From Candidatus Thiosymbion oneisti (GTDB lineage: Bacteria; Pseudomonadota; Gammaproteobacteria; Chromatiales; Chromatiaceae): a DNA stretch of 35,981 nt. Where the stretch lies: positions 1 through 35,981 of the forward strand of contig NZ_FLUY01000280.1 of assembly GCF_900092655.1 (NCBI RefSeq), written 5' to 3'. Below the pieces are notes generated by a model. That model did no database searches and was not told the DNA's origin. It saw nothing but the letters and a program-made list of their open reading frames with translations. Shown here in pieces: positions 8,596-21,650 of this stretch. The position numbers were made by a program, and so were the translations under genes. How positions within the stretch are numbered: the stretch's first letter is position 1; each line of letters opens with the position of its first letter.

Positions 8596-9870
8596 TCAGT
8601 CCGACGCGGCGAGCTGTTGGTCGCCCCCATCGTAGATGATGAAGGGGTCGCTCTCGCCTGAAATGACCGAGCCGTCGACGACCACCTTGCTCACATTGTC
8701 CATCGACGGCAAGTCGTACATGATGTCGAGGAGGGCTTGCTCCATGATGGTGCGCAGGCCACGGGCGCCGGTCTTGCGATCCATCGACTTGTGTGCGATT
8801 GCCGTCAGGGCATCGTCGCGCAGCTCCAAGCCGCACCCTTCCATCTCGAAGAGCCGGGCGTATTGCTTGGTCAGTGCATTTTTGGGCTCGATAAGGATAC
8901 GCCTCAAGGCCGCTTCGTCCAGCTCTTCGAGCGTGGCGATGACCGGAAGGCGACCGACGAATTCAGGGATCAAGCCGTAGCGAATGAGGTCCTCCGGCTC
9001 AACCTCACGCAGGAGCTCGCCGATCTTCTTCTGGTCATCCTCACCCTGTACCTCTGCCGCGAAGCCGATCCCTCCCTTTTTCGAGCGAGTGCGGATCACC
9101 TTCTCGAGACCGGCAAAGGCCCCCCCGACGATAAACAGGATGTTGGCGGTATCCACTTGCAGAAACTCCTGCTGCGGATGCTTACGCCCACCCTGGGGCG
9201 GTATCGAAGCGACGGTGCCCTCGACGAGCTTCAGCAGGGCCTGCTGCACCCCCTCTCCGGATACGTCGCGGGTGATGGAGGGATTATCCGATTTGCGCGA
9301 GATCTTATCGATTTCGTCGATATAGACGATGCCCGTCTGGGCCTTCTCCACATCATAGTCACACTTCTGCAACAGCTTCTGAATGATGTTCTCCACGTCC
9401 TCGCCCACATAGCCTGCCTCGGTCAGGGTGGTGGCATCGGCGATCGTGAAGGGGACGTTCAGCAGTCGCGCCAGGGTCTCGGCGAGCAGCGTCTTGCCGG
9501 AACCCGTGGGGCCGATGAGCAGAATATTGCTCTTGGCGATCTCGATATCTTCCTTGATATCACCGGCCTCGAGCCGTTTGTAATGGTTGTAGACGGCGAC
9601 CGAGAGCACCTTCTTCGCCTGCTCCTGACCGATGACGTACTGATCCAGGATTTCCTTGATCTCGCGGGGCTTGGGCAGCTTGCTGGTCGCCTCGCCCACA
9701 CTCTCCTCGATCTCCTCGCGGATGATGTCGTTGCACAGATCGACGCATTCGTCGCAGATAAAAACCGAGGGACCTGCGATCAGCTTCCGCACCTCGTGCT
9801 GGCTCTTGCCGCAGAACGAGCAGTAAAGCAGCTTGGCATCGTGGTTCTTGCCGCGGTTGTTGCCACTCAT
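8596..9870 (-). CDS. clpX: ATP-dependent Clp protease ATP-binding subunit ClpX
   Basis: Hexameric AAA+ unfoldase that feeds substrates to ClpP. The 424-aa chain has the ClpX zinc-binding domain at residues 16-45 (four Cys in [11 protein letters not shown] and [12 protein letters not shown]), Walker A GPTGSGKT, Walker [12 protein letters not shown], sensor and arginine-finger motifs ([19 protein letters not shown]), and the C-terminal small domain ([18 protein letters not shown]). Normally clpX directly follows clpP. Here about 2.8 kb of accessory DNA separates them: a repeat, an orphan parA, a second copy of the clpX leader, and a cassette-like gene. So clpX may depend on a promoter in the repeat-derived leader instead of readthrough from clpP. 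Confidence 0.97.
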
Positions 9871-16873: not shown

Positions 16874-18169
16874 CTAACGCAACAGGGGGGACCAGGCCGG
16901 CTCGCGCACGTCGCTCAGCCCCTGAGACAACCGTTGGCTGACGGACCCATCCACCGAGACCGCGGACAGAATGCTTCGGCCACCATGCAGTGTCGCATAA
17001 ATTACCATGGTGCCGTTGGGAGCAAAACTCGGGGACTCGTCTAACCTGCCGCTGCTCAGCGACCGCATCGTCCCGGTATTCAAATCCAACAGGCCGATGC
17101 GAAAGCTGCCGTCGATCCGGGTCACGCACAGGATGGAACGGCCGTCCGGCGCATAGGAGGCGCGGCCATTATAGTCGTTTTCGAAGGTGACCCGCGCCGC
17201 GGTCCCCCCGGTGGCCGGGATGCGATAGATCTGAGGACTCCCGCCGCGGTTGGAGGTAAAGATGATGTGGCTGCCGTCAGGCGACCAGGCGGGTTCGGTG
17301 TCGATGGCGAAGTGGTCCGTAACCTGACGCAGGTTGCGGCTGACCAGATCCAAGACATAGATCTCCGGGTTACCGTCCCTCGACAGGGTCATGGCCAAGC
17401 TGCGGCCATCCGGCGACCAGGTCGGGGACCCATTGATGCCCTTGAAGCCTGCGATTCGTTCCCGTCGGCCCGTGGCCAGCTCCTGGAGGTAGATGGCGGT
17501 CCGGCGATTCTCGAAGGAGACATAGGCCAGCTGACGGCCGTTCGGTGACCAGGCCGGGGACATGATGGGGTCACGGGAGGACACGATGGTCTGCGGATTG
17601 TGGCCGTCCGCGTCCGCCACCTCGAGCTTGACCCGTTGGCCGCCTCGATTTCCATCGGAGGTCACATAGGCGATACGGGTGGCGGCGACCCCCGGAGTGC
17701 CGGTCAGCCGCTCGTAGATCATGTCGGCGATCCGGTGCGCGGTATACCGCAGCTCCGAAGCGCGGCTGGTAAAGGTCATGGCCGCCAGCTGCTTACCGCG
17801 AAAGACGTCGAACAGGACGCAGCTGATGTCGTAGCCGCCTACGGCCGCCCGCTCGACCTTGCCGATGACCAGATTGTCCATCGCCACCAGGCGCCAGTCG
17901 CGCAGGTCCACCTCCTCAGCTGTGTGGGGGGTAGCCATCATGTCACGGCGGGGCATGGGCCGGAAACGCCCGGTTCGGGCCAGATCGGCCGCAATAACGG
18001 CTGCCACATCTTCGGCAAGCACCCCGCCGCCCTCAGGTCGCGCGAAAGGGACGATGGCGATGGGCTGGGCCCCTTCGGTGCCACCGGTGATCTCGATGGT
18101 GAGGCGGGCCTGGACCCCGATCGACCAGATCAGCAGGAACAGTAGCGAGAGAACGGACAGTGGTTTCAT
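16874..18169 (-). CDS. tolB: Tol-Pal system protein TolB
   Basis: Periplasmic beta-propeller that binds Pal and TolA. 431 aa. Signal peptide [21 protein letters not shown] (cut near residue 21), N-terminal alpha/beta domain (residues about 25-160; [20 protein letters not shown]), and a six-bladed propeller whose blades repeat the WSPDG signature ([71 protein letters not shown]). In most gammaproteobacteria tolB follows tolA directly; here an ATPase-nuclease pair intervenes, so tolB-pal-cpoB probably has a separate promoter or relies on transcription through the inserted genes. Confidence 0.96.
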
Positions 18170-18319
18170 GGGTTGTTTTTTTAGTGATCAGTGGCTAGTG
18201 GTCACCAATCACCGGTTATCGACCACTAAACGCTGAGGTGTGTGAGCCAGAAGATACTATAAATCCGCAATATCGGTTGAAGCCGGGTGCTAGGCGCCAG
18301 AAGACATCACCCTCACCGA

Positions 18320-18871
18320 TTATGCTGCCAAGCCAGCGAGCCGGTTAAATTGAAGGTAGTTCGGCCAGTCGATTTTCATGGCCCGATCGGGAGTATCATG
18401 CTGCTTTTCTATCCTTGTGATCCTCGTTTTTCTCTTGGCAATGTTCGTGTGACCGATGCTGATGAAGCGATTCTTATAGCCAGCCAGGAAGGAACTTTCA
18501 TCCCAGAATACCTTGCCGACTTCTTGACAATATTTGATAAAACACTGGGTTCCCATCAGCTGTTTAACGATCTGGTTCCATGCATCCTTAGTACGCTTGA
18601 TCTCGATATACAGGATACATTTCCTTTCCGCACTGATGATGACGTAATCAGCACGTTTGCATTCACCATGCAGCCCTTTGAAGATGTCATCCGGTGAGCG
18701 AAAGGCGTCCACTTTGATTACTATCGCATCGGCCGGCAGACTGCGAATGGTCGCACTGGAATCGGGCGCTTGGGGTTCGCGAAGCCTGACGAGTGGTTTG
18801 CCATAATCTTCTTGCAGCGGCACCAGCGCGGTATCCCGGATCATCTGGGAGAGGATGTCCATGTCCATCAT
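18320..18871 (-). CDS. putative PD-(D/E)XK-like nuclease partner of the upstream ATPase
   Basis: 183 aa; no named family recognised. Residues 69-92 read GECKRADYVIISAERKCILY then IEIK: D75, then E90-x-K92 on a beta strand, followed by a helix with Q104 (NQIVKQLMGTQCFIKY). This D-(x14)-ExK pattern with a trailing Gln is the PD-(D/E)XK nuclease core, and E70 could serve as the upstream helix acid. The N-terminus is polar, with IRDTALVPLQEDYGKPLVRL. It overlaps the ATPase stop by four bases (ATGA), so the two are translationally coupled and presumably act together. The nuclease call is motif-based inference; a non-catalytic use of the fold is possible. Both genes sit between tolA and tolB, a place where accessory genes are unexpected. 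Confidence 0.65.
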   Translation of the reverse strand: MMDMDILSQMIRDTALVPLQEDYGKPLVRLREPQAPDSSATIRSLPADAIVIKVDAFRSPDDIFKGLHGECKRADYVIISAERKCILYIEIKRTKDAWNQIVKQLMGTQCFIKYCQEVGKVFWDESSFLAGYKNRFISIGHTNIAKRKTRITRIEKQHDTPDRAMKIDWPNYLQFNRLAGLAA

Positions 18872-20253
18872 GATTCATCATCCCCCCAGACGATTTCTTC
18901 CTGGATGCGGTTCATATCCTCTATGGTCTTATCGAAACTCCTGGCCTCTATTCCATACTTGCCGTCGATATCGGCCGGAACAAGCGTCGGATATCGACCG
19001 CGCTTTTTTGCGCCATCCGGCTCGATGAGGGCCTCTTCCGCTATGTACACCCGTACTTTTTCAGGGGCGAGCAGCTCCGATGCTCCATAGTGCTCGCGTT
19101 CCGCCAGCGCCTGCAACCGTTCTCCACCCTGATTGAGCATAATCAGGGTATTCAGCTCCTTGATGATGTAGTCACTATGGGTCGTGATGAATACCTTGAT
19201 GCCGAGGTTGACCAGTCTTGCAAAGAGGCGGGCAATCCTTCGTTGATTCTCCGGATGGAGATTCAGCTCCGGCTCGTCGATCATGAGCAGATCGCCTGGT
19301 GCGACTACATGGCGGAGATAGAATCCGATATCCAGGAGTGAACGCACGGCACTGGAGCTCTCATCCATGGTCAGCCTGACGCGCTTGCCCTTTGGAAGGT
19401 AATAGATATCATCGTCTTTTGTTGCCAGGTAGTCACCGCCGATAATGTCAGCAAAGTCATGCAAGATTTCTGTATGGTCTTTTGAAATAAAACTCTCTTT
19501 TTTGGTGAGCCCTTCGAGCCGGCTATTAAATTCAACATTCGACGTGACTGGCAGAGCATAATCTTTATAGGCCCCAAATATTAGATCAACTAGGCTTCCC
19601 TTCTTTTCCATTGAACTCGTTTCTCCAAGCAAGCTACTAAAGTTGAGTTCCTTTCTGAAGATCGCGGCGCCGGTGCGTTCCGCGCTGGCAATGAAAGGAC
19701 GCGGAAAAAGGTGTCCGAAAAGGATATCTTTCAAGGCATCGCTGATGGTCTTGCTAATGACGTCCGGTGGTATTCCGACCTTTTCTTTTTCGACCAGCAG
19801 GGAAATCTTGACTAATTGGGAATCGGCCTTTTTTGCAATGGAAAAGAGTTGCGCTTTCGCGGCCCCCATGGTGCGTTCAAAGGTTTGCTTTGGCTGGATG
19901 TCACTCGGGTCGAGGTCGATAGCAAAATGACTCTCGGAGAAATGCTTATCCGGCGAGGCAAAAATCTGTGGGAGCCGTTTGGTGAACGCCTTGCACCCCT
20001 CTTCCAATATGGCCGCTGCCTTGCCGACGTAGGTGTTCAGATCCAGGTCGATATTGCCTTCACTCAGGAGACGCTGGATATCTTCATTCGGTACTTTAAT
20101 GGAAAGAATATTTCGCCAGAGGAATAGAAATCCGAACAAGGCATAGGTCGCATAGGTCTTGCCAGTATTGTTGTCACCGCAAATAATTGTCAACTTGCCA
20201 AGCGTGAACTCCGCTTGTCTGATGACGCCCAGATTCTTTATTGAAATCTTCAT
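18868..20253 (-). CDS. ABC/RecF-like AAA ATPase of a candidate defence pair
   Basis: 461 aa. Residues 26-33 are the Walker A motif GDNNTGKT in the setting IKNLGVIRQAEFTLGKLTII, typical of SMC/RecF/OLD-type ATP-binding proteins. SAERTG (190-195) is a conserved island of the same ATPases. An ABC-type signature-like ESSSAVRSLLDIG lies at 298-310, Walker B with catalytic Glu at 321-334 (DLLMIDEPELNLHP), and the switch His at 359 (TTHSDYI). The middle (50-290) is the variable helical insertion. No TOPRIM domain is present, so it is not a full OLD nuclease; the nuclease function seems split into the next gene. ATPases of this class with a separate nuclease are common in phage-defence systems such as Septu and PARIS, but the partner here fits neither HNH nor TOPRIM. 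The role is inferred. Confidence 0.8.
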   Translation of the reverse strand: MKISIKNLGVIRQAEFTLGKLTIICGDNNTGKTYATYALFGFLFLWRNILSIKVPNEDIQRLLSEGNIDLDLNTYVGKAAAILEEGCKAFTKRLPQIFASPDKHFSESHFAIDLDPSDIQPKQTFERTMGAAKAQLFSIAKKADSQLVKISLLVEKEKVGIPPDVISKTISDALKDILFGHLFPRPFIASAERTGAAIFRKELNFSSLLGETSSMEKKGSLVDLIFGAYKDYALPVTSNVEFNSRLEGLTKKESFISKDHTEILHDFADIIGGDYLATKDDDIYYLPKGKRVRLTMDESSSAVRSLLDIGFYLRHVVAPGDLLMIDEPELNLHPENQRRIARLFARLVNLGIKVFITTHSDYIIKELNTLIMLNQGGERLQALAEREHYGASELLAPEKVRVYIAEEALIEPDGAKKRGRYPTLVPADIDGKYGIEARSFDKTIEDMNRIQEEIVWGDDES

Positions 20254-20642
20254 ATCGCTTTACTCCTTAAACCTGCATCCGTTTGCCTTCGCGGGCTCCT
20301 TCCGGTCCAATCTTCTGGTGATTGCTGGATCCCCTCTCCCCAACCCCTCTCCCGGAGAAGGTGTCGCAAAAGCCCGTAGGAATGTGGTGAGTGCAGCGAA
20401 CCGCATCGATTTTTCTCACACAAAGCCTCAAAAACACGAAGAATGCCTCTCTGTCGCCGTTGAAATCCGCAAGCTTTTCATCTTAAGACCAGGATACGAC
20501 GCTTCCTATCGCTCCCCTTTTTATCCTTGTATCTCTTTGTGCCTTTGTGTCTCTGTGCGATGTAAAAAACTTTCGCGCCGATTCGCGCGATTCGTAGTTT
20601 TTGTTCCCGGTTTTTGTGCGCAGCTGTACCAGCAACTCCCCA
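20254..20642. repeat. repeat-filled gap between tolA and the ATPase gene
   Basis: 389 bp without a gene. It holds part of the CCCCTCTCCCCAACCCCTCT repeat (20330-20358, half of the palindrome seen whole at 23881-23930), and fragments of host-style repeats such as CACAAAGCCTCAAAAACACG and CTTTGTGCCTTTGTGTCTC. A promoter for the ATPase-nuclease pair should be here, but none stands out. Confidence 0.5.
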
Positions 20643-21650
20643 TCAGGGCTTGAAGTCCAACCTCAGATTCCTGAACTGTCCGAACAACTGCCCGGAGGGT
20701 ACGGGTAGGGGAGAGGCCTTGTAGACAGCGGTCACCACGGAGCGATCGAATGCCGGGTTGCCGCTGCTGCGGATCACCCGCACACCGGCGGGAACCACTT
20801 CCCCGCCCGGGATAAGTCTGACCTCTACCAGGCACGAGAGGTCCCGCCCCATACCCGGCTGACGGACCCAGTTTCGGCGGATACGCTCTCGGATCGCGTT
20901 CGTGTAGACGCCCAACTCGCCGGCGGCTGCTTGTTCCGCCTCCAAGGCTACCAGCAGATCCGCCTCCCGCGCCCGTTGGGCCTCCTCCTTGGCCTTGCGT
21001 TGGGCCTCCTCCTTGGCCTTGCGTTTGGCCTCCGCTTGGCGCTGAGCGGCTTCTTTAGCCTCGCGTTCAGCCTCGGCCCGTTGCCGGGCCTCCTCTTCGG
21101 CCTTGCGTTTGGCCTCCGCTTGGCGCTGAGCGGCTTGCTTGGCCTTGCGTTCGGCTGCGGCCTGTTGCCGGGCCTTCTCCTCGGCCTTACGCTTGGCCTC
21201 CGCTTGGCGCTGAGCGGCTTCCTTGGCCTTGCGTTCGGCTTCGGCCCGTTGCCGGGCCTCCTCTTCGGCCTTGCGCTTGGCCTCCGCTTGGCGTTGAGCG
21301 GCTTCCTTGGCCTTGCGTTCGGCTTCGGCCCGTTGCCGGGCCTTCTCCTCGGCCTTACGCTTGGCCTCCGCTCGGCGCTGAGCGGCTTCCTTGGCCTTAC
21401 GTTCGGCTTCGGCCTGTTGTCGTGCCTCCTCTTCGGCCTTGCGCTTGGCCTCCGTCTGATGTTGGGCCGCGACCTTCGCCTCTACGGCCTCAGTACTGAC
21501 GATGGTGGCTTGTACAACCCGCGGCTCGCTCCGTACCTCATCGAAGGTAGCCAACCAGTCCACACTCACCAGGGTAAACGCCGCCAAGATCAGGTGCAGC
21601 AACAGGGCGGCCCCGAAGGCCCGCGGGTTCCTGCGCAGGATTTGCCACAT
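20643..21650 (-). CDS. tolA: Tol-Pal system protein TolA
   Basis: Energy-coupling protein spanning the periplasm from TolQR to TolB-Pal. 335 aa. One N-terminal membrane anchor (residues 12-32, FGAALLLHLILAAFTLVSV), a long Ala/Lys/Glu/Arg helical arm at about 67-230 made of near-perfect 28-residue repeats, and a C-terminal domain (about 240-335) with the TonB/TolA-type pattern YTNAIRERIRRNWVRQPGMG, LVEVRLIPGGEVVPAGVRVI and SSGNPAFDRSVVTAV. Follows tolR after a 214-bp gap containing a mobile repeat; in most relatives that gap is a few bases. Confidence 0.95.
   Translation of the reverse strand: MWQILRRNPRAFGAALLLHLILAAFTLVSVDWLATFDEVRSEPRVVQATIVSTEAVEAKVAAQHQTEAKRKAEEEARQQAEAERKAKEAAQRRAEAKRKAEEKARQRAEAERKAKEAAQRQAEAKRKAEEEARQRAEAERKAKEAAQRQAEAKRKAEEKARQQAAAERKAKQAAQRQAEAKRKAEEEARQRAEAEREAKEAAQRQAEAKRKAKEEAQRKAKEEAQRAREADLLVALEAEQAAAGELGVYTNAIRERIRRNWVRQPGMGRDLSCLVEVRLIPGGEVVPAGVRVIRSSGNPAFDRSVVTAVYKASPLPVPSGQLFGQFRNLRLDFKP
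20980..21452 (-). repeat. 84-bp tandem repeats within tolA
   Basis: About five and a half copies of a 28-residue unit, AEAKRKAEEEARQRAEAERK followed by AKEAAQRQ, alternating EEEARQRA and EEKARQQA variants. DNA units are nearly identical, so this arm can change length by recombination or slippage and may be mis-assembled in short-read data. Confidence 0.85.

Follow-up and report, generated by a model that had tools for sequence, protein, structure and literature searches.

A PDC-M47-type ATPase-nuclease pair, a candidate anti-phage module, between tolA and tolB of Candidatus Thiosymbion oneisti

The stretch of DNA analysed here (the window, 35,981 nucleotides) comes from Candidatus Thiosymbion oneisti and carries two overlapping genes, ORF A and ORF B, inside a Tol-Pal operon (Table 1). 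Candidatus Thiosymbion is a genus of marine-worm symbionts. All genes of the region lie on a single strand, with ybgC, tolQ, tolR and tolA upstream of the pair and tolB, pal and cpoB downstream. NCBIfam models confirm TolB, TolA, Pal, CpoB, TolQ, TolR and YbgC around A and B, among them both borders of the site that an earlier inspection of the letters (the sequence-only reading) had placed between tolA and tolB. The tolA-tolB gap that holds the pair measures 2,473 bp. The four bases shared by the two frames and the 183-residue length of the partner are as that reading had described them, and the overlap makes translational coupling of A and B likely. An SD-like AAGGAG lies 9 nt 5′ of the A start, in the tolA-A spacer; a promoter scan of this spacer gave no candidate upstream of A, and a terminator-like stem within it (20573-20590) is weak and no better than chance. 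The spacer is a mosaic of short genome-dispersed repeats (49 matches, itself included), which may have helped insertion. In the centre of tolA (20970-21500), AEAKRKAEEEARQ-like repeats form a long array. A housekeeping envelope operon is an unusual home for defence genes.

Table 1. Features of the tolA-tolB insertion in the window and homologous loci found in defence contexts.
Feature	Position in window	Strand	Description
ORF A	18868-20253	minus	461 aa; OLD/RecF-like ABC ATPase; PDC-M47A by model match
ORF B	18320-18871	minus	183 aa; probable PD-(D/E)XK-type nuclease; PDC-M47B by model match
ATGA overlap, A stop/B start	18868-18871 (4 bp)	minus	seen also in the sister species (L021)
tolA, upstream border of insertion	20643-21650	minus	TIGR02794, 5.8e-47
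tolB, downstream border of insertion	16874-18169	minus	TIGR02800, 1.3e-152
tolA-A spacer	20254-20642 (389 bp)	minus	dispersed repeats; A-adjoining part kept in the sister species
B-tolB spacer	18170-18319 (150 bp)	minus	alignable to the sister species in the part adjoining B, but not in most of the remainder
BREX-embedded loci			L014, L015, L016, L017, L019, L020, L036, L046, L049, L062
Loci whose pair has type III methylase/restriction or DrmD-like helicase genes nearby (7)			L039, L041, L068, L072, L077, L080, L081

The motifs first picked out in ORF A are all intact and follow one another in the expected order: Walker A (GDNNTGKT, residues 26-33), the signature (SAERTG, 190-195), the Walker B region (LLMIDEPELNLHP, 322-334, with E327) and the switch histidine (TTHSD, 357-361, H359). 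The protein matches Pfam AAA_15 (1.9e-24), PADLOC PDC-M47A over residues 1-458 of 461 (8.1e-221) and PADLOC PD-T4-4_A (9.5e-150); a PDB sequence search returned nothing at 1e-8. Structure prediction, which the sequence-only reading had proposed as a check for both proteins, gave an ATPase fold for A (pLDDT 85, pTM 0.87). VIA-align scores this model at Z of about 15 against Septu/retron PtuA and 13 against AriA; it shares the ATPase head of PtuA, SMC/Rad50 and AriA, and its fold is as in OLD ATPases. A is probably the infection sensor and regulator of the pair.

In an alignment of 46 sequences, E32, D75, E90 and K92 of ORF B are invariant and Q104 is more than 90% conserved, a pattern well in excess of any chance motif; the last four residues are exactly those on which the sequence-only reading had based its PD-(D/E)XK pattern. 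The predicted structure of B (pLDDT 90.6, pTM 0.88) contains a PD-(D/E)XK-type core with its elements in the order of that fold (strands 76-80 and 85-91, helix 98-122, strand 133-140). D75 stands just ahead of the first strand, E90-x-K92 ends the second, and Q104 lies in the helix. Comparison of the model with solved structures gave weak matches (best Z 5.8), mostly to PD-(D/E)XK nucleases; Can2, Card1, McrC, Hjc, FokI and Bse634I are among these matches at Z of 5.8 or less. Foldseek against PDB and viral models found nothing significant (best E 0.14), and a PDB sequence search produced insignificant matches only, over the active-site region (BpuSI, Hjc). B had no match in Pfam or NCBIfam, and neither Pfam nor PADLOC revealed a TOPRIM or HNH domain in it, in agreement with the original view that the partner is neither. 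B is probably a PD-(D/E)XK-type nuclease and the effector of the pair. The further suggestion that it represents a different effector branch had to be given up, because B matches PADLOC PDC-M47B over residues 1-179 of 183 (3.7e-76, 253 bits). PADLOC PD-T4-4_B matches weakly (7.6e-4, 17 bits) and is not the main model for B.

As both proteins match full length, A and B can be assigned, at the level of sequence models, to PDC-M47, a phage-defence candidate family of PADLOC. PDC-M47 is a computed candidate family. Its genes come in the same order as A and B, which adjoin each other on a single strand, and the sole difference that we found is the tolA-tolB location of the window pair. The pair is therefore of a known kind, and it is its location that is unusual. 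We found no published report of a phage test of any PDC-M47 member.

Scanning genome contigs yielded 167 relatives. The best 80 of these come from Pseudomonadota, Thermodesulfobacteriota, Cyanobacteriota, Synergistota, Bacteroidota, Verrucomicrobiota, Cloacimonadota and methanogenic/ANME archaea, among others, and more distant relatives are carried by plasmids and phages. At 72 of the 87 homologous loci examined, A is followed within 60 bp by an ORF of 150-235 aa; several of the remaining loci are contig ends or broken frames. Within the genus, the genome of the sister species (G003) encodes a further A homologue (34% identity), and that of another congener (G002) has a separate PD-T4-4-type pair (L006, 1501-3461; B against PD-T4-4_B, 1.9e-37).

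Many close relatives of the window pair are BREX accessories. At 10 of the best 80 genome loci the pair is inside a type I BREX operon, in most of them directly between brxC and pglX (Table 1). PADLOC identified BrxA, BrxB, BrxC, PglX and PglZ at L014 and BrxC, PglX and PglZ at L062, and the remaining BREX loci were identified through BLAST comparison with the genes of L014. The bacterial family of the window itself contributes an eleventh case (L139, genome G091). Other homologues have type III or DrmD-like genes nearby (Table 1), and L037, which is the closest relative outside a Tol context in the A tree, has as neighbours a C5 methylase, Vsr, a Mrr-type helicase and a GHKL ATPase. PglX, BrxC, methylases and SNF2 helicases are among the commonest PADLOC and Pfam matches of 106 immediate neighbours, in a tally made without a matched random control. 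The neighbourhood survey that the sequence-only reading had recommended thus leads to BREX and type III RM operons and, distantly, to plasmids and phages, and together with the full-length PDC-M47 matches it bears out the proposal of a candidate defence module. This repeated embedding in BREX and RM operons fits defence better than a selfish addiction module of toxin-antitoxin-like design, devoid of a defence role, in which a toxic B would be checked by A. Such a module would suit two genes that overlap in one operon, and WonB, the nuclease of the probably related WonAB system, is toxic when overproduced (PMC12137116). That toxicity requires the WonA ATPase, however, so that WonA is no simple antitoxin (PMC12137116), and we regard an addiction module as very improbable.

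Conservation is uneven along A. Its column conservation has a trough at about residues 41-180, and between the window and six loci (L046, L049, L053, L054, L061 and L062) residues 61-180 are 22-27% identical and residues 311-380 are 74-93% identical. The poorly conserved stretch is likely to be the trigger-sensing region. The trees of A and B disagree, and nucleases have thus been exchanged between ATPases within the family. The A proteins of L016 and L017 are 74-76% identical to that of the window, and their B proteins (8739-9281 and 8629-9171, respectively) are 46-48% identical to the window B and group with that of L046 (9392-9937), to which they are 81-82% identical. Forcing the B proteins of L016 and L017 into the window clade was rejected (AU p 5e-6, for a group picked after the trees had been seen). 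At these two loci an A close to that of the window is paired with a B of a distant clade, and such exchange helps to tell sensor from effector.

In a maximum-likelihood tree of A, the window groups with L021, the G003 locus, from the Thiosymbion symbiont of Catanema (support 100/93), and the two are nested in a clade with many BREX-embedded members (10 rows, 100/95; 12 rows, 99/94). In the sister species, too, the pair separates tolA from tolB. Sequence adjoining A and B is alignable between the two species, and farther out the spacers have mostly diverged. A third congener (G001) has an empty site, with less than 30 bp between tolA and tolB; this gap measures tens of bases in most other relatives and several hundred in a few. 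GC content is 0.50 for the pair versus 0.65 for tolB, and GC3 is 0.58 and 0.60 for A and B versus 0.81 for tolB. B was found in 3 of 194 sampled family genomes. With this foreign GC3 and the empty site in a congener, acquisition of the pair, which the sequence-only reading had supposed from its position, is well supported. Conversely, vertical conservation across the clade was not what we found: a core gene of the clade was rejected given the pair's absence from G001 and the rarity of B in the family. Between the window and the sister species, dS is 0.48 for A, 0.36 for B and 0.35 for tolB, with dN/dS of 0.22, 0.24 and 0.23, respectively; the pair is kept under purifying selection. The dS of tolB to G001 is 0.79 from both species, which makes G001 the outgroup. 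Shared junction, foreign composition, empty site and dN/dS together give, as the simplest history, a single acquisition before the split of the two species with vertical inheritance under purifying selection thereafter, and a secondary loss in G001 is possible. The clade that holds the window pair is dominated by BREX-embedded members, so the pair probably moved from a BREX context to Tol-Pal.

Inheritance along with tolA and tolB since the ancestor of the two species, at similar dS and dN/dS, would also be expected of a pair that had been domesticated to serve Tol-Pal or the response to envelope stress and was expressed together with tolQRA, its ATPase sensing the state of the envelope and B acting on mRNA or DNA. 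The placement of the pair within the operon and on its strand suits this idea. Its nearest relatives reside in defence operons, however, no tolA-tolB flanks occur in the other genome and viral-contig relatives that were fetched, and the pair is missing from a congener and from nearly all sampled family members. We therefore consider domestication highly unlikely. A functional tie to Tol-Pal, for which position and orientation are the basis, is speculation, as is a link between the pair and TolA as a route for phages or colicins. It is likewise improbable that a BREX-accessory abortive-infection module moved into Tol-Pal and took its transcription, with defence coupled either to the integrity of the envelope or to attack on it by phages and colicins. 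If this were true, the Thiosymbion tolA-tolB junction would be a recurrent landing site, a view in which the ampG-family gene that follows tolA in G002 would also have a place. In that congener the gene stands 30 bp after tolA, in the place of tolB (L141, 2434-3810); tolB was not found in the G002 assembly, and the L141 contig ends shortly after the ampG-family gene.

The window copy of A departs from its relatives in one respect. RNR is missing from the segment xRNRLLE (after SAERTG..FRKELNF; window 19590-19665, residues ~200-222), which nearly all close relatives retain, the sister species included, and confidence in the A model is low at residues 202-221. The window branch of the A tree is about twice as long as that of the sister (0.14 vs 0.06), and B shows no speed-up (0.11 vs 0.12). 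Given the loss of RNR and the doubled A branch, the window copy of the pair may be altered or weakened. The same observations would suit a decaying remnant, that is, a formerly defensive pair whose window copy is losing function, but both frames are intact, the ATPase and nuclease motifs are all retained, and the pairwise dN/dS is 0.22-0.24, so that decay is unlikely.

Our preferred explanation, which we hold to be highly probable, is that A and B form an anti-phage pair of the PDC-M47 kind, horizontally acquired, that aborts infection through B. By homology to tested kin, it would most likely do so by activation of B. In this mechanism A, an OLD-type ABC ATPase that is presumably dimeric, would hold B in a complex and regulate it; by analogy with the model of WonAB, B would be expected to dock at the C-terminal region of A. 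Upon infection, a trigger would be sensed via residues ~41-180 of A, which would then release or activate B, and B (E32, D75, E90, K92, Q104) would cut nucleic acid of the cell or the phage, perhaps RNA, as proposed for WonB. By analogy with its homologues, this cleavage would abort the infection. Horizontal transfer, most likely out of a BREX-embedded lineage, would have brought the pair into a Thiosymbion ancestor, at its tolA-tolB junction. For a defence module, the locus is a well-bounded case from a genus of animal symbionts: the site is empty in one congener and occupied in the sister species, and the gain can be dated in relative terms. The locus also connects the candidate family PDC-M47 to phage-tested kin and supplies catalytic residues and a predicted fold.

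Among known systems, PARIS (AriA/AriB), Septu (PtuA/PtuB) and Gabija/OLD share the ATPase fold of A (Z 13-15, AriA and PtuA). Their effectors are TOPRIM or HNH proteins, whereas B, of PD-(D/E)XK type, has no match to either family. PARIS was rejected because B lacks a TOPRIM (DUF4435) AriB-like match and has an invariant E-D-ExK motif, Septu because B lacks an HNH PtuB-like match and has the PD-(D/E)XK motif and strand order, and Gabija membership because the effector is neither TOPRIM nor HNH. The pair's relatives are instead PD-T4-4 and, probably, WonAB, two systems demonstrated to stop phages (PMC9519451; PMC12137116). PD-T4-4 of E. coli came from a phage-resistance selection and is part of an ICE-like defence locus (Vassallo 2022; PMC9519451). 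It has in common with the window pair a two-gene plan and a close A (9.5e-150), and its partner, like B, is reported or predicted to be PD-(D/E)XK-type; PD-T4-4_B scores 7.6e-4 against the window B versus 1e-43 and 3e-108 against two enterobacterial plasmid pairs. WonAB, from the WASA-1 prophage of V. cholerae, combines an OLD-ABC ATPase with a small PD-(D/E)xK nuclease in the order of A and B (PMC12137116), and the domain features that mark WonAB-type pairs, OLD-ABC ATPase motifs with PD-(D/E)xK residues in the partner, are present in A and B. The catalytic Lys is residue 71 in WonB and 92 in B, so that the protein lengths differ, and the published wonA primer had no match when scanned against viral contigs. 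Changing the ATPase residues of WonA or K71 of WonB abolishes protection; the system acts once phage DNA replication has begun, genomic DNA stays intact while translation stops, and rRNA or tRNA has been suggested as the WonB target (PMC12137116). Pairs of an OLD-ABC ATPase and a PD-(D/E)XK protein have thus already been described (PMC12137116; PMC12839542), and those near BREX have been proposed to be backup suicidal effectors (PMC12839542). A search of the window's own genome for BrxC, run without a positive control, gave no match. The BREX-neighbourhood modules have the same domain pairing as A and B, homologues of which also lie inside BREX operons; unlike these modules, the window pair lies outside BREX, between tolA and tolB.
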